Shown here: positions 1,385-27,754 of the stretch, piece after piece
How positions within the stretch are numbered: position 1 is the first letter of the stretch
Layout: every line of letters starts with the position of its first letter
Origin: Halomarina rubra
GTDB taxonomy: Archaea > Halobacteriota > Halobacteria > Halobacteriales > Haloarculaceae
Length of the DNA stretch: 40,191 nucleotides
Assembly: GCF_023699475.1 (NCBI RefSeq)
Contig: NZ_JALXFV010000007.1
Span: 6,614-46,804 of the forward strand
Direction of reading: 5' to 3'
Made by a program: the position numbers and the translations under genes
Notes under the pieces: generated by a model
Seen by the model: the letters and a program-made list of their open reading frames with translations, nothing else
Databases searched by the model: none
What the model was told of the DNA's origin: nothing

Positions 1385-4273
1385 ATGGATTCGTCGGTCA
1401 ACGCTCTCCGTTCGACGCACGTTCTACTCGTCGGAGAGTCGGGGTGGATGGCGTCGTTCGAGCGGTATCTCGAAACGGAGACGGAAGCGACCGTCGATGC
1501 GGTAGCTACAGCGTCGGAAGCACTCGAAGCCGTCAGAGAGCACCGTGTCGACTGTGTCGTCTGTGCGGCCGACCTCGGCTCGTCGACCGGTGTCGATTTG
1601 GTCGCGTCGATTCGTGCGGAGACGACCGCGCTCCCGGTCGTCGTGTGTACGGCCGACGGCGACGAGGCGACGGCGAGCGCCGCGATCGGGGCCGGCGTCT
1701 CCGATTACGTTGCGCTGGAGACGTCACCCGCCGGCTCGCTCGACGGGCAGTTCGGCGACCTCCGCGCTCGTATCGACCGGAGCATCCGTCGTGCCAAGCG
1801 GTCGGTGACACGGCAGGACCGCGCCCGCCAGTTCGACGCCATCTTCCACGACACTCGCACAGCGACGTGGGTGCTCGACCCCGACGGGACGGTCGCGCGG
1901 GCCAACGAGACGGCCCGGAATCGGGTTCCAGAGCCGGTCGAGGCAGTCGTCGGTGACCCGTTCTGGACGCTCTCCCGCTGGTCTCACGACGAGGCAATCG
2001 AAGCAGACGTTCGGCGCGTCGTCGAGACCGCACTGGACGGGGCGTTCGGCCACGCGGTCGTCACGCGGTCGTCGGCCGGCGAGTCGACCAGCGTCGTCGA
2101 ACTCTCCGCGCGGCCCGTCCACAACGGTGCCGGCGAACTCGTCTCGATCGTCGTCGACGGCGTCGACATCACCGAGCGTGTGACGCTCGAGCGAGAGCTC
2201 CGCCAGTCCGAGGAGCTTCACCGAGTGACGCTCAACAACATGACTGACACGGTCCTCATGACCGACGAGGACGGCGAGTACACCTACGTCTGTCCGAACG
2301 TCCACTTCATCTTCGGATACACCGACGAGGAGATTCGTAGCCGGCAGCCGATCGACGACCTGCTCGGCGAAGACCTGTTCGACCGCGAGGAACTCGCCGC
2401 GAAGGGCGTCCTCAAGAACATCGAGTGTACCGCGACGGACAAAGCCGGGCGTGAACACACGCTGCTCGTCAACGTTCGCGAGGTGTCGATTCAAGACGGC
2501 AGCCTCCTCTACAGCTGTCGTGACATCACGAAGCGCAAACAGCGCGAGGAGGCGCTCGCGACCCTCCAGGGGACGGCGCGTGACTTTCTGTACGCGGAGA
2601 CGCCGTACGAGATCGCTCAGCACGTCGTCGACGATACGCCCGGTGTCGTCGACCTCGACGCGAGCGCGGTGTACCTGTTCGACGCCGACGAGAACCACCT
2701 CGAACCGGTCGCACAGTCCGCCCGGATGCGGGAGTTGAACGGGCCGCTTCCGTCCGTCCGGGCCGACGACGCCGGCCTCGTCAGTGACTGTTTTCTCGAC
2801 GACGAGCCCCTGTTCTTCGACGACGTCCACGACTCCGAGCGACTCGACAATCGTGCGACGGACCTCCGCAGTGTCGCGTACATCCCGCTCGGTGACCACG
2901 GTGTGTTCGTCGCCGGGTCGTCGGCCGTCGGTCGCTTCGACGCGGTGAGCCGAGAGTTGACCGACCTGTTGGCTGCCACGGCCGAAGCCGCACTCGACCG
3001 GGTCCGACGTGAGGGGCGACTCCGACATCAGGAGCGCGAACTGCAACGGCGGAACGCCGAACTCACCGCGCTCGACCGCATCAACGAGATCATCCGCGAG
3101 ATCGACCAGGCGCTCGTCGGAGCCGAGACGCGCGTCGAGATAGAACACGCCGTCTGTGACCTGCTGACCGACGACGACCGCTTCTCGTTCGCGTGGATCG
3201 GCGTCGTCGACTCCACCAACGACGTCCTCGAACCACGCTCGTGGGCCGGCGACGAGCGCGGGTACCTGGACGAAACCACGTTCACGATCGCCGAGTCGGC
3301 GGTCGAACCGGCCGGCCGGACCGCAGCGACCCAGACCGTGACGACCGTCGATACCGTTCCGGCGCGTCTCCGAGAGGAGTCGTGGCGTTCGAACGCCCTC
3401 TCGCGGGATTTCCTCTCGGTACTGAGCGTCCCGCTCGCCTACGATGAGTTCACCTACGGCGTTCTGACGGTGTACGCCGACACCCAGGCCGCGTTCGACG
3501 ACACGGCGAGGGAGGTCCTCGCCGAACTCGGCGAGACCATCGCTTCCGCGACGAGTGCCATCGAGCGCAAGAACGCGTTACTCACGACTTCGGTGACGCG
3601 CGTCGAGTTCGACGTCGAGGACCCGACGTTCGTCCTCTCGCGACTCGCGGACGCGGCAGGCTGTGAACTCACCTATCGAGGCGGTGTCCAGCAGACCGAA
3701 CACGGGAGCGACATCTTCGTCGGCGTCGAGCGAGCGCCCGTCGACGCGGTCGTCACGGCTGCGAGTTCGCTCGTCTCGGTCGAGGGAGTCCAGCCCATCA
3801 GTTCCGACGAGTCCGGTGGCGTCGTTCGACTGCGAGTCGCCCAGCCGTTTCTCGCACTCGGACTCGCCGACCACGGAGCGGTCGTACAGCGCGTCACTGC
3901 CGGCGAGGACGGCACGACCGTCCTCGTCGACGTTCCCGAGACCGTCGACGTGCGCCACATCACACGACTGCTCTCGAACTCGGTCGCGGGAGTGAACCTC
4001 CGCTCGAAACGGACGCTCGAAGAGTCCTCGACGCGGGACCTCCACTCGCGGTTCCTCGAACAGGTCACCGACCGACAGCTCGAAGTCGTCCAGACGGCGT
4101 ACTACAGCGGATTCTTCGAATCGCCCCGCGAGAGCACGGGTGAGGACGTCGCCGCCGCACTCGACATCTCGCCGGCCGCCTTCTACCGACACTCGCGGAC
4201 GGTCCAACGCAAGCTCTTCTCGACGCTGTTCGACGAGGTCGGCGTCGCTGCGTTCCCGGCGACGAACGGGTGA
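1385..4273 (+). CDS. Bat-like multidomain sensor regulator (pseudo-receiver, PAS, PAS, GAF, GAF, Bat, HTH_10)
   Basis: A 962-residue cytoplasmic sensor that binds DNA directly, without a histidine kinase domain. Domains in order: receiver-like fold (about 5-115), PAS (about 145-270, ending VVDGVDITERV), PAS (about 280-390, ending SCRDITKRK), GAF (about 400-540), a coiled linker (REGRLRHQERELQRR), second GAF (about 560-725), a Bat-specific domain (about 735-870) and HTH_10 (about 890-950, with VTDRQLEVVQTAYYSGFF and ALDISPAAFYRH). In the receiver, the position of the phospho-accepting Asp is Ala61 (DCVVCAADLG) and the usual Lys near SDYV is absent, so it probably cannot be phosphorylated. The start at 1385 was chosen because MDSSVNALRSTHVLLVGES begins the receiver; the same frame is open far upstream but overlaps the globin gene. 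Family members (Bat of Halobacterium) activate genes in response to O2 and light; the signal here is unknown. Confidence 0.9.
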   Translation: MDSSVNALRSTHVLLVGESGWMASFERYLETETEATVDAVATASEALEAVREHRVDCVVCAADLGSSTGVDLVASIRAETTALPVVVCTADGDEATASAAIGAGVSDYVALETSPAGSLDGQFGDLRARIDRSIRRAKRSVTRQDRARQFDAIFHDTRTATWVLDPDGTVARANETARNRVPEPVEAVVGDPFWTLSRWSHDEAIEADVRRVVETALDGAFGHAVVTRSSAGESTSVVELSARPVHNGAGELVSIVVDGVDITERVTLERELRQSEELHRVTLNNMTDTVLMTDEDGEYTYVCPNVHFIFGYTDEEIRSRQPIDDLLGEDLFDREELAAKGVLKNIECTATDKAGREHTLLVNVREVSIQDGSLLYSCRDITKRKQREEALATLQGTARDFLYAETPYEIAQHVVDDTPGVVDLDASAVYLFDADENHLEPVAQSARMRELNGPLPSVRADDAGLVSDCFLDDEPLFFDDVHDSERLDNRATDLRSVAYIPLGDHGVFVAGSSAVGRFDAVSRELTDLLAATAEAALDRVRREGRLRHQERELQRRNAELTALDRINEIIREIDQALVGAETRVEIEHAVCDLLTDDDRFSFAWIGVVDSTNDVLEPRSWAGDERGYLDETTFTIAESAVEPAGRTAATQTVTTVDTVPARLREESWRSNALSRDFLSVLSVPLAYDEFTYGVLTVYADTQAAFDDTAREVLAELGETIASATSAIERKNALLTTSVTRVEFDVEDPTFVLSRLADAAGCELTYRGGVQQTEHGSDIFVGVERAPVDAVVTAASSLVSVEGVQPISSDESGGVVRLRVAQPFLALGLADHGAVVQRVTAGEDGTTVLVDVPETVDVRHITRLLSNSVAGVNLRSKRTLEESSTRDLHSRFLEQVTDRQLEVVQTAYYSGFFESPRESTGEDVAAALDISPAAFYRHSRTVQRKLFSTLFDEVGVAAFPATNG

Positions 4274-24960: not shown

Positions 24961-24986
24961 ACACACCCCTCGTCAAGAGTGTAAAC
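24961..24986 (-). repeat. ORB 1 (inverted)
   Basis: Read on the minus strand this is GTTTACACTCTTGACGAGGG followed by GTGTGT. It is the only full box on the left of the AT-rich element and is in inverted orientation to the other six. Confidence 0.85.
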
Positions 24987-25004
24987 GTCCGAAGGTGGGT
25001 GGGG

Positions 25005-25019
25005 GTTTCCACGAGAAAC
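25005..25019. repeat. Dyad GTTTC-CACGA-GAAAC, ORB-like
   Basis: A perfect 5-bp inverted repeat preceded by GGTGGGTGGGG. It resembles the dyad core TTTC...GAAAC that I recall from other archaeal ORBs, but its G-run is on the opposite side from the usual arrangement. Confidence 0.4.
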
Positions 25020-25120
25020 AGAGGTCGTAAGACGGCGTCGTGGACAGCTATCGTCCACTCCTCGGGGGAACAGACCTCGAGAACGCATGCGCATGATTCC
25101 ATGGGTTCGAGTCGCACCCA

Positions 25121-25137
25121 GTGAATGCCGCATTCAC
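25121..25137. repeat. Inverted repeat GTGAATG-CCG-CATTCAC
   Basis: A perfect 7-bp inverted repeat with a 3-bp spacer at the left border of the AT-rich element. It could form a small cruciform or be a protein site. Confidence 0.5.
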
Positions 25138-25290
25138 TTCACTTGTATGCTGAATGCACTTGGCGAACTGTTCGAACTATGACTATATAAAATCACTAGG
25201 TTACGAGCAATCAACGGATACGTTTGGTGGATTGTTCGAGTGAGGAACACTCATCTGCCGTATTCCTTTTCATTGAACCTTCTCCCCTCG
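25138..25290. other. AT-rich DNA-unwinding element of the origin
   Basis: This is the longest AT-rich stretch in the window, with ACTTGTATGCTGAATGC, CTATATAAAATCAC and TATTCCTTTTCATTG. It lies between the inverted and direct ORBs, where archaeal origins melt. GAGTG-aggaa-CACTC at 25238-25252 is a further inverted repeat inside it. Confidence 0.75.
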
Positions 25291-25345
25291 ATTCTCCACT
25301 AATTCTCGACCCGTTACACTCCCGCCCCACCCCCTCACTCGCACG

Positions 25346-25370
25346 GTTTACACTCTTGACCGGGGGTGTG
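25346..25370 (+). repeat. ORB 2
   Basis: GTTTACACTCTTGACCGGGG followed by GTGTG. First direct box to the right of the unwinding element; its core differs from ORB 1 by a single base (CCGGGGG for CGAGGGG region). Confidence 0.85.
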
Positions 25371-25447
25371 TGTGGTGGATCTCGCGACGGAACGGTTGGT
25401 CCCGATGTCGCTCGTTGAGATAGAACTCCCCCTCCCACCGTCCCGTC

Positions 25448-25473
25448 GATACACTCTTGACGAGGGGTGTGGG
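25448..25473 (+). repeat. ORB 3
   Basis: GATACACTCTTGACGAGGGG followed by TGTGGG, 102 bp from ORB 2 (about ten helical turns). Confidence 0.85.
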
Positions 25474-25538
25474 GGGTGAGGCGGACGATATCGTCCCCCA
25501 CGAAGACCGCGTCCCGGCCCCCCGACGACGTGTCCACG

Positions 25539-25562
25539 GATACACTCGTGACGAGGGGTGTC
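25539..25562 (+). repeat. ORB 4
   Basis: GATACACTCGTGACGAGGGG followed by TGTC, 91 bp from ORB 3. Confidence 0.85.
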
Positions 25563-25596
25563 GCGCTGGCGCTGCCCTCGGTTCGACCGCTCGCTC

Positions 25597-25622
25597 GATA
25601 CACTCTGGGCGAGGGGTGGGGG
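25597..25622 (+). repeat. ORB 5
   Basis: GATACACTCTGGGCGAGGGG followed by TGGGGG, 58 bp from ORB 4. The central TTGAC is changed to TGGGC, so binding may be weaker. Confidence 0.8.
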
Positions 25623-25629
25623 GTCGACA

Positions 25630-25640
25630 GTTACACTGGG
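25630..25640 (+). repeat. ORB half-site
   Basis: GTTACACTGGG has the left half of the box but lacks the G-rich tail. It may be a decayed or partial site. Confidence 0.4.
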
Positions 25641-25652
25641 TGGTTCGTCCCC

Positions 25653-25676
25653 GTTACACTCGTGACTAGGGGTGGT
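25653..25676 (+). repeat. ORB 6
   Basis: GTTACACTCGTGACTAGGGG followed by TGGT, 56 bp from ORB 5. Confidence 0.85.
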
Positions 25677-25855
25677 CCGACGTCGTCGACGTCTTCGAAC
25701 GGACGCGTCGACGGTCGTGATACGTGGGCGAGTGGTGACCCACTCGACGACGTCGAATCCCAACCGAGACGAGGCACGCTACAGTCTCGAAGCACCCCGA
25801 ATGACTCCGTCTGACGACCGAGAAGAGACGATGGCTGCACCTACGACAGCACCGA

Positions 25856-25879
25856 TTTACACTCTTGGCGAGGGTGCGA
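25856..25879 (+). repeat. ORB 7, abutting the orc1 promoter
   Basis: TTTACACTCTTGGCGAGGGT followed by GCG. It ends 2-3 bp before the TATA-like sequence of orc1, so Orc1 bound here could affect its own transcription. Confidence 0.75.
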
Positions 25880-25915: not shown

Positions 25916-27190
25916 ATGACCGACGAACCGACGGACCTCTCGGACTTCGACGACCGGTTCGAGGACCCTTCCGAGGACCCACTGTTCAGTATCGAGGAAG
26001 ACCCCGGTCAGGTCGAGATCTTCTCTCGGAAGGAGCTCCTCAAGGTCGGCCACGTTCCCGAGAGCACGCGGATCGTCGGTCGCGACGGCGAGATCGAAGC
26101 CGTCGCCGCGGAACTCAGACCCATCGTTCGAGGCGACCCGCCGAACAACGTCATGATCTACGGAAAGACGGGAACCGGTAAGTCCCTCGTCGCCCGTCAC
26201 GTCACCGAGCGCGCTCGACGCGCCGGCGAGAGCAACGGCATCTCCGTCGGGACGGTGTACGTCGACTGTGCACAGCACAACACCCAGACTCGAGTCGCTC
26301 GAACCGTCACCCGGACGCTCAACGAGCGGGCGAACACTCAGTTCACCATCCCTCGGACGGGAATCGGGAGCGGTGAGTACTACGACTACCTGTGGGAGAT
26401 CCTCGACGCCGCGTTCGACTCGGCGGTGATCATCCTCGACGAGGTAGACCGGCTCGACGACGACGACATCCTGATGCAACTCACGCGCGCCCGCGAGTCC
26501 GGGAAGGCCGACTGTCACCTCGGGGTCGTCGCGGTGAGTAACAAGATTGAGTATCGCGACCAGTTGAACGAGCGCGTCAAGTCGAGCCTCCGCGAGGAGG
26601 AGTTCGTGTTCCAACCGTACGACGCCAACCAGCTCCGGGAGATTATGGAGCATCGTCGAGACGCCTTCCAGAAGGGCGTCCTCTCGGAGGACGTCATCCC
26701 GCTCACTGCGGCGGTCGCCGCCCAGGAACACGGCGACGCGCGGAAGGCTATCGAGATCCTCCGTCACGCGGGCGAACTCGCCGAGCGGGCGAACGTGAGC
26801 AGCGTCACGGAGGCACACGTCCGCGACGCCCAGGAGTGGGCGGAGATCGACCGGTTCGAGGAACTGCTCCGCGGGTCGACGACGCAGGTGAAGTTCATCC
26901 TCCACTCGCTCGCGACGCTCTCCGACGAGAACCCTGACTCCGAGGGGTTCTCGACCAGTCGCATCTACGACCGCTATCAGGAGGCCGCCGAGAAGACGAA
27001 CGCCACCGTCCTGAGCGAACATCGGGTGTACGAACTGCTGAAAGAACAGGCGTTCCTCGGTGTCGTCGAGTCGACGCGAACCGGGGGCGGGCGCGGCCAG
27101 GGGAGCTACCTCGAACACCGACTCGTCCAGGACACCGACATCGTGCTCAAGTCCGTCCTTCGCGACAGCCGTCTCAAAAAGTTGGCCTGA
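25916..27190 (+). CDS. orc1: Orc1/Cdc6 replication initiator
   Basis: A 424-residue AAA+ origin-binding protein. An acidic N-terminal tail (1-30) precedes IFSRKELLKVGHVPE. Walker A is GKTGTGKS (83-90), Walker B is VIILDEVDRL with Asp175-Glu176, and sensor 1 is VVAVSNKIEY. A C-terminal winged-helix domain (about 325-424) carries VLSEHRVYELLKEQAFLGVV and the basic GGGRGQGSYLEHRL wing that binds ORB DNA in relatives. It recognises origin boxes and recruits MCM helicase. The ATG at 25916 was chosen because MTDEPTDLSDFDDRFEDP is a typical start; the frame opens at 25865 but would include the TATA box. The seven adjacent ORBs make it the probable initiator of this origin. Haloarchaea carry several orc paralogues, so the number is left open. 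Confidence 0.95.
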   Translation: MTDEPTDLSDFDDRFEDPSEDPLFSIEEDPGQVEIFSRKELLKVGHVPESTRIVGRDGEIEAVAAELRPIVRGDPPNNVMIYGKTGTGKSLVARHVTERARRAGESNGISVGTVYVDCAQHNTQTRVARTVTRTLNERANTQFTIPRTGIGSGEYYDYLWEILDAAFDSAVIILDEVDRLDDDDILMQLTRARESGKADCHLGVVAVSNKIEYRDQLNERVKSSLREEEFVFQPYDANQLREIMEHRRDAFQKGVLSEDVIPLTAAVAAQEHGDARKAIEILRHAGELAERANVSSVTEAHVRDAQEWAEIDRFEELLRGSTTQVKFILHSLATLSDENPDSEGFSTSRIYDRYQEAAEKTNATVLSEHRVYELLKEQAFLGVVESTRTGGGRGQGSYLEHRLVQDTDIVLKSVLRDSRLKKLA

Positions 27191-27304
27191 ATACGAGTTC
27201 CTATCCTCTGTACATCGCATCCTAGCAGAATCGTCTCCTCGGCATCGTCGTCGCTCGTCCCGTCGGCACCGTTCGTGAGCAAGCCGTCGCCACGTCCGCG
27301 GAGA

Positions 27305-27345
27305 GTTACCCCACAAATTCAAATTTCTCGAACGTGTGGGGTAAC
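27305..27345 (+). promoter_or_regulatory. Promoter enclosed by a perfect 11-bp inverted repeat
   Basis: GTTACCCCACA (27305-27315) and TGTGGGGTAAC (27335-27345) are perfect inverted arms with a 19-bp spacer holding the TATA-like AAATTCAAATTT (about 27315-27326). The centres of the arms are 30 bp apart, about three helical turns, and the right arm ends 1 nt before the ATG at 27347. This is a strong operator candidate. Confidence 0.75.
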
Positions 27346-27346
27346 T

Positions 27347-27754
27347 ATGGGCCGACCTCCGTGCTCCTCGACGCCTCCGGACCCTCCGGACCTCCCCTCG
27401 TACGTCGTCGACCCCCTCGACCGCCAGTCGCCGGACCGCCTCGACGAGATCGCCGAGTACGCGGCGTCGCTCGCGACGTGGAAACGGCGTCGGGAACATA
27501 CCGACGCTAGTGACCGGCGTGCGGCGGAGGCGGTCGGCGAGGAAGAACTGGGTGTGCTGTCGGAACGCGGGACGTCGACCGACCCGGCCGACTACGAGGA
27601 CGTCCCGTCGAACGGCGCGTACGTGACGGTCAAGACCACCAAGCGGAGCGACGGGAAGCGTTACCGGTACTACTACTGGCAGTGGCGTGAGGGTGAGACC
27701 TGGAACAACGAGTACATCGGACCGGTCGAGGACTCGTCGAGCGACGAGGGGTGA
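27347..27754 (+). CDS. Small haloarchaeal protein, DUF6788-like C-terminus
   Basis: A 135-residue protein I recognise only in part. The N-terminal half has a Pro-rich start, then LPSYVVDPLDRQSPDRLDEI and a helical EYAASLATWKRRRE, similar to haloarchaeal proteins common on chromosomes, plasmids and viruses. The C-terminal half is basic and aromatic (VTVKTTKRSDGKRYRYYYWQ, WNNEYIGPVED), a strand-rich pattern resembling DUF6788. The aromatic/basic patch could bind nucleic acid. The ATG at 27347 is placed exactly at the expected start of a leaderless mRNA, with a perfect operator around the TATA box, so autoregulation is plausible. Its stop lies 5 nt from the stop of the convergent oxidoreductase gene. 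No function can be assigned. Confidence 0.75.
   Translation: MGRPPCSSTPPDPPDLPSYVVDPLDRQSPDRLDEIAEYAASLATWKRRREHTDASDRRAAEAVGEEELGVLSERGTSTDPADYEDVPSNGAYVTVKTTKRSDGKRYRYYYWQWREGETWNNEYIGPVEDSSSDEG

Follow-up and report, generated by a model that had tools for sequence, protein, structure and literature searches.

Downstream of an orc1/cdc6 gene in the haloarchaeon Halomarina rubra lies a small open reading frame (ORF) whose promoter is wrapped by a long inverted repeat, which raises the question of what binds the repeat and whether it is the product of the small gene itself. The window, as the term is used here, is the whole 40,191-nt stretch of DNA that was analysed, and it lies in a 413-kb contig. 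The ORB-like repeats of the origin are found on the other side of orc1 from the small ORF, and the features discussed below are arranged as follows.

24962..25877, + strand: ORB-like repeats of the orc1-adjacent origin, direct repeats TACACTCTTGACGAGGGGTG plus one inverted copy
25916..27190, + strand: Orc1/Cdc6 replication initiator gene (Pfam Cdc6_lid 2.1e-24, Cdc6_C 8.2e-17), a neighbor outside the putative regulatory unit
27305..27315, + strand: left arm GTTACCCCACA of the inverted repeat, a type A half-site read from the sequence
27316..27334, + strand: spacer of 19 nt, AATTCAAATTTCTCGAACG, with a TATA-like element
about 27318-27326, + strand: TATA-like element TTCAAATTT, ~25 nt 5' of the ATG
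27335..27345, + strand: right arm TGTGGGGTAAC, type A half-site, between the TATA-like element and the start codon
27347..27754, + strand: ORF of 135 amino acids plus stop, putative binder of the arms

A preliminary description of the locus had reported a perfect 11-bp repeat that stops 1 nt short of the start codon, with arms three helical turns apart, and these particulars proved exact. All 11 bp of the arms GTTACCCCACA and TGTGGGGTAAC match as reverse complements, and a single T separates the right arm from the ATG at 27347-27349; an in-frame GTG at 27275 precedes this ATG, and homologues begin at the ATG. The centre-to-centre spacing is 30 bp in the window (about 2.9 turns) and 30 to 34 bp, with a mode of 32 to 33 bp or three turns, in nearly all sites of the two large arm types, designated A and B. 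By a rough estimate, an upstream stretch of this kind would contain some perfect inverted repeat of 11 bp with a chance of ~2.5e-4. When repeats were called de novo (score of at least 9, within 90 nt of the start), they were found ahead of 125 of 138 homologues versus 39 of 1,343 other genes, with many of the 39 being the same motif, which bears out the earlier view that the repeat is not fortuitous.

Two known origin-associated elements were considered and rejected as identities for the repeat. It is not an ORB, since the ORBs read TACACTCTTGACGAGGGGTG and the arms read GTTACCCCACA. The enhancer of the haloarchaeal oriC1 is likewise a G-rich inverted repeat near an orc1-type origin, but it lies between inverted ORBs inside the origin, whereas the window repeat is found past the end of orc1, at the promoter of a gene, and repeats of its type recur far from origins (PMC3936714); this identity was ruled out by sequence and position.

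The TATA-like sequence previously noted between the arms is present in the window, where the left arm occupies the expected BRE/upstream side, and the repeat flanks such an element in nearly all homologues as well. Across own-gene sites, A/T content peaks 5 to 9 nt past the left arm, reaching 98% at two positions in type A, where the element is located about 25 to 27 nt 5' of the ATG. This is the distance expected for leaderless haloarchaeal transcripts. When the spacers of own-gene and distant sites were compared, the TATA-like element was absent from the distant sites. As the arms flank the element, a protein bound to them would straddle the core promoter, and repression is the natural inference. 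In the homologue carried by pNRC200 of Halobacterium NRC-1 (L260:19367-19470), the right arm and the TATA-like element are kept and the left arm is replaced by unrelated sequence; autoregulation may have been lost at this promoter.

To judge how closely repeat and protein are associated, the arms were searched for within the window genome and beyond it. Across the whole window genome there are 10 copies of the 11-mer arm and none of a reversed control pattern, and eight complete gapped type A sites are present. Two of these precede homologues, namely the window gene and a second gene whose product shares 60% identity and which has its repeat (C14:316312-316353) directly before the start; the other six lie elsewhere. 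Homologues of the window protein were identified in 78 of 146 family genomes and at 318 loci in the genome collection, and the window protein clusters with copies from Halomarina oriensis on a maximum-likelihood protein tree. Identical arms precede about 40 close homologues. In essentially every intact close homologue examined, a perfect type A repeat ends 1 to 3 nt before the start, or 10 to 12 nt in a few, the interval being about 9 to 11 nt in a Natrialba/Natrinema group; one homologue (L095/L182) has kept the repeat and has ATA where ATG is expected. The gapped pattern GTTACCCCAC N16-26 GTGGGGTAAC was found in 20 of the 146 family genomes, with up to 12 copies in each and no hits for the control. 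All 16 genomes with close homologues (E ≤ 3e-30) carried type A repeats, as did four others, one of which has a truncated homologue adjoining a site. Type A sites elsewhere in the genome co-occurred with type A proteins (Fisher p of 5.6e-18).

More distant homologues, of ~107 amino acids, are preceded by a different repeat, type B (TTAACCAACA...TGTTGGTTAA), located 10 to 19 nt 5' of the start. Type B repeats were found in 88 of the 146 genomes, with up to 27 copies and none for the control, and none was found in the window genome; in trans, they co-occurred with type B proteins (p of 5e-17). An unbiased search for any upstream inverted repeat, covering 80 loci in named organisms, recovered type A arms with proteins of 120 to 130 amino acids, type B arms with proteins of 107 amino acids, and single cases of CTAACCAAC (136 amino acids) and CTAACCCACG (115 amino acids). 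A still more distant branch, reached via L146_12, has the arms CTTACCTAACA, CTTACCAAACA, and CTTATGTAACA, mostly 0 to 3 nt before the start. When other haloarchaeal families were searched with Pfam, the same promoter design was seen in most cases, and the arm type CTTGTACAACA was added. Subfamilies have their own arms (GTTACCCCACA, GTTAACCAACA, CTAACCAACA, CTTACCAAACA, CTTATGTAACA, and others), always set about three helical turns apart. Two further types, F and G, also have sites away from the gene, largely in genomes encoding the corresponding proteins. At three loci with DUF6788-type genes (L306, L310, and L311), the two arms are unlike in their middle bases (CTTACCTAAC / GTTTGGTAAG), and such pairs may be transitional from one arm type to another, D and F.

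When seven arm types were placed on the maximum-likelihood protein tree, six changes, the minimum, sufficed, compared with 37.8 for shuffled labels. Host families are mixed inside each of the two large arm types; arm sequence tracks protein subfamily, not host taxonomy. The preliminary description had proposed co-variation of arms and protein as the check on self-regulation, and at least seven arm types were found to follow subfamilies across Halobacteria, a pattern that argues for the self-regulator reading. As a promoter and its gene are inherited together, agreement between protein and own-gene arms would by itself be weak, and so the argument rests on the sites in trans and on arms that stay constant amid diverged flanks: across sites, identity was 99% for arms, 30 to 53% for spacers, and 26 to 46% for flanks. 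Sites in genomes with no detected homologue were seen in 4 genomes for type A and 17 for type B, mostly as one to five sites or in incomplete genomes; one of these genomes, G051, has five.

Beyond what the preliminary description had reported, the repeat is dispersed over plasmids at many other genes. It is present up to 27 times per genome and precedes genes for conjugation, ArdC, DNA polymerase B, and regulators. In the fetched regions all 180 type A and B sites were intergenic, though coding sequence makes up at least 73% of these regions; the gene contexts come from a crude codon-usage gene caller (coding fraction of only 0.73, with some mis-calls, e.g., window_17), and as genes are missed or mis-called the context counts are approximate. 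On NZ_CP101324, a complete plasmid of 107 kb from Natronomonas gomsonensis, nine perfect type B sites, all intergenic, were identified in a scan of all but its last 7 kb. They are located at the heads of a type IV secretion (VirB4) gene run, a DUF6610-ArdC run, and four further genes or gene runs, with the remaining sites at a divergent pair, at the small gene itself, and in one convergent gap. Several sites on one replicon lie upstream of backbone operons, as would be expected of a KorA/KorB-like system, and the targets recur across plasmids. Distances from site to gene are fixed across plasmids at 53 nt for a 272-aa family and 73 nt for DUF6610; sites lie 132 and 84 nt upstream of two winged-helix families (wHTH224 and wHTH307, respectively), 166 to 188 nt from DNA polymerase B, and 75 to 140 nt from ArdC-like genes. 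Since distances of 50 to 190 nt are unlike the core-promoter position at the own gene, the effect at distant sites could be activation or otherwise nonrepressive. Eight type A and 12 type B sites lie between convergent genes, some recurring between the same two genes in several plasmids, and are not explained by a simple operator model. One such site, a perfect or near-perfect type B repeat at L292:25720-25760, has equivalents at L141, L144, L145, L147, L150, L154, L161, L173, and L174, i.e., in about ten plasmids, and no promoter is annotated there.

The protein itself had no Pfam, NCBIfam, or significant PHROGs match. It had no Pfam hit to ParB or helix-turn-helix domains that would place it in the KorB/ParB family, and it fell below the curated cutoff (27.2 bits) of DUF6788 (PF20586), a family with no recorded function. 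Relatives with type F and G arms score 33 to 42 bits for DUF6788, above the cutoff, and an hhalign comparison of 63 window-type with 9 F/G-type proteins gave a probability of 97.3% (E of 2.5e-11 over 95 columns), by which the two branches are homologous at the profile level. Haloarchaeal DUF6788 members share with the window protein its size, an N-terminal LPxYL...QD/QS pattern, and the promoter repeat design; their Cys/His part (CGxxxC...HGPY) is missing from the window protein. An AlphaFold2 model built from 63 sequences (mean pLDDT of 85.9, pTM of 0.61) has helices at residues 18 to 25, 29 to 61, and 65 to 73 and strands at 92 to 99, 105 to 115, and 118 to 126. The most conserved residues (Y108, Y110, Q112, W113, R114, G116, and Y123) all fall within the predicted sheet. 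Sequence searches of the PDB and Foldseek returned only noise, and the predicted fold had no match to a known DNA-binding domain in the PDB. On this model it is plausible that the three-stranded sheet reads the major groove and that the long helix serves for pairing.

The family is large, unstudied, and mostly plasmid borne. Type B proteins were found in 215 plasmid records and window-like proteins in 37, nearly all of them, among the matches listed, annotated as hypothetical proteins; known plasmids with a homologue include pNG600 of Haloarcula marismortui and pNRC200, where it lies beside orc4 and a B-type DNA polymerase gene. A plasmid- or virus-derived origin had been suggested, and the plasmid half of that suggestion agrees with these records, while a viral origin is left without support, as no phage record matched the family. 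When 39 regions of 19.5 kb around homologues were sampled, 34 contained an Orc/Cdc6 gene, as fits a replicon-backbone gene beside origins. Given the plasmid records of the family, the window gene, now amid metabolic and transport genes, looks like, and probably is, a plasmid-derived copy next to a replication origin.

Taken together, we consider it likely that the window protein is an autoregulated, sequence-specific DNA-binding protein that acts as a plasmid-wide regulator of KorA/KorB or stoperator kind. Of its two parts, autoregulation is well supported by sequence comparison, and the wider finding would be a regulatory system that spans the plasmid and whose site specificity has diversified. 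Under such a scheme, the small protein, probably as a dimer or higher oligomer, would bind both arms on the same helix face about three turns apart, and the bound arms, bracketing its own TATA-like element, would block access of TBP/TFB and so keep its own expression low. On plasmids that bear the gene, the same protein would bind 5 to 27 further repeats at the heads of backbone operons for conjugation, ArdC, PolB, and winged-helix regulators, giving plasmid-wide regulation, and the subfamily-specific half-sites would insulate co-resident plasmids from one another. A more far-reaching form of the proposal, which we advance tentatively and hold to be somewhat less probable than not, is that the family, DUF6788 included, comprises plasmid "identity" regulators with a fold not in the PDB, whose sheet recognises half-sites of 11 bp with the pattern (G/C)(T/C)T(A/G)-NNNN-AC(A/G). 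The middle four bases would vary by subfamily (CCCC, ACCA, CCTA, CCAA, TGTA, or TACA), defining regulons that do not cross talk and that might be compared to phage immunity groups.

The dispersal of the repeats would also suit centromere/partition or nucleoprotein-organising sites, with autoregulation as a by-product, as in ParB/ParR-like proteins. Sites between convergent genes as well as at promoters, their clustering near the gene and the origin, and one homologue (L067) divergent from a ParA gene with a site between the two are in keeping with such a role. We nevertheless regard it as unlikely, as ParA was present in only 3 of the 39 regions and many sites keep the fixed distances to given genes (53, 73, 84, and 132 nt) expected of regulatory sites. 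Less probable still is that another plasmid regulator, of the winged-helix or Orc/Cdc6 type, binds the repeats, with the small protein being no more than a target under strict control. The sites at fixed positions upstream of wHTH224 and wHTH307 and the frequent Orc/Cdc6 genes in the sampled regions (34/39) are compatible with this. However, wHTH224 was found in only 13 of 39 regions, and as the sole other site-linked regulator probed it had no homologue in the window genome (8 sites) or in G054 (12 sites); the ORBs of the adjoining Orc differ in sequence from the arms. Moreover, among the genes seen, only that of the small protein has the repeat at its promoter almost without exception, and it is the phylogeny of this protein that the arm type follows, through seven arm sequences.

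Two explanations that dispense with a bound regulator fit poorly. In RNA, the repeat could fold into a perfect stem of 10 to 11 bp closed by a loop of 20 nt, and some sites lie between convergent genes; yet at type A own genes the TATA-like element lies between the arms, so that the left arm should be upstream of the transcript, and spacing is held at 30 to 34 bp while the loop sequence is poorly conserved, making a leader hairpin or terminator very unlikely. That the repeats are sites of recombination, or the ends of a very small mobile element, is scarcely credible: many near-identical arms per genome on mobile replicons would be in line with it, but spacers and flanks vary by site (26 to 53% identity), each unit spans no more than about 41 bp, and none of the sites falls within a gene.

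The favored reading, a regulator acting throughout its plasmid, has parallels in bacteria and their phages. KorA, KorB, and TrbA are described as global regulators of IncP (RK2) plasmids, and they resemble the proposed system in being plasmid encoded and autoregulated with several backbone operators for replication, maintenance, and transfer (PMC11790492, PMC4889941). No sequence or fold relation to the window protein was found; the haloarchaeal system differs in its archaeal promoters, with half-sites about three turns apart around a TATA-like element, and mostly lacks ParA linkage. The stoperators of Cluster A mycobacteriophages such as L5 likewise pair one regulator with many dispersed site copies, but they belong to a phage and the crystallised repressor is monomeric on an asymmetric site, in contrast to the plasmid setting and long inverted repeat seen here (PMC9283540, PMC6550527). 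A literature search by arm sequences yielded no haloarchaeal paper among the matches listed, and literature searches turned up no account, for haloarchaea, of these repeats, of what DUF6788 does, or of a plasmid-wide regulator on their plasmids. An uncharacterised family with hundreds of loci, including DUF6788 and the pNRC200 homologue, thereby gains a concrete functional proposal, predicted sites, and a list of targets, among them genes for conjugation, DNA polymerase B, and ArdC. The plasmids of haloarchaea are large and numerous in each cell, and they are poorly understood. The paired half-sites and subfamilies also form a natural data set on how target DNA might be selected by a small beta-sheet protein.

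Other inverted repeats were observed in the window and near homologues. A second perfect repeat in the window, of 12 bp (GGGAGCGACGTC, positions 1295-1306 and 1328-1339, 21-nt spacer), lies ~45 nt 5' of a 962-aa gene (1385-4273). At L150, L165, and L251, a separate inverted repeat, GAGTAAATCAC...GTGATTTACTC, with arms 26 to 29 nt apart, is located near the homologue and upstream of both neighboring genes (MSDEEPPVPEEVL... and MSTDLGTAEGMESREL...). A winged-helix-like gene of 553 aa (MRATALQIIDCLRDRSY...), seen at L158 and L245, is preceded by a perfect 20-bp inverted repeat, TTAATTCCAATTTCACCGAT, with a 14-nt spacer; this gene is divergent from the homologue and is apparently a separate autoregulated gene.
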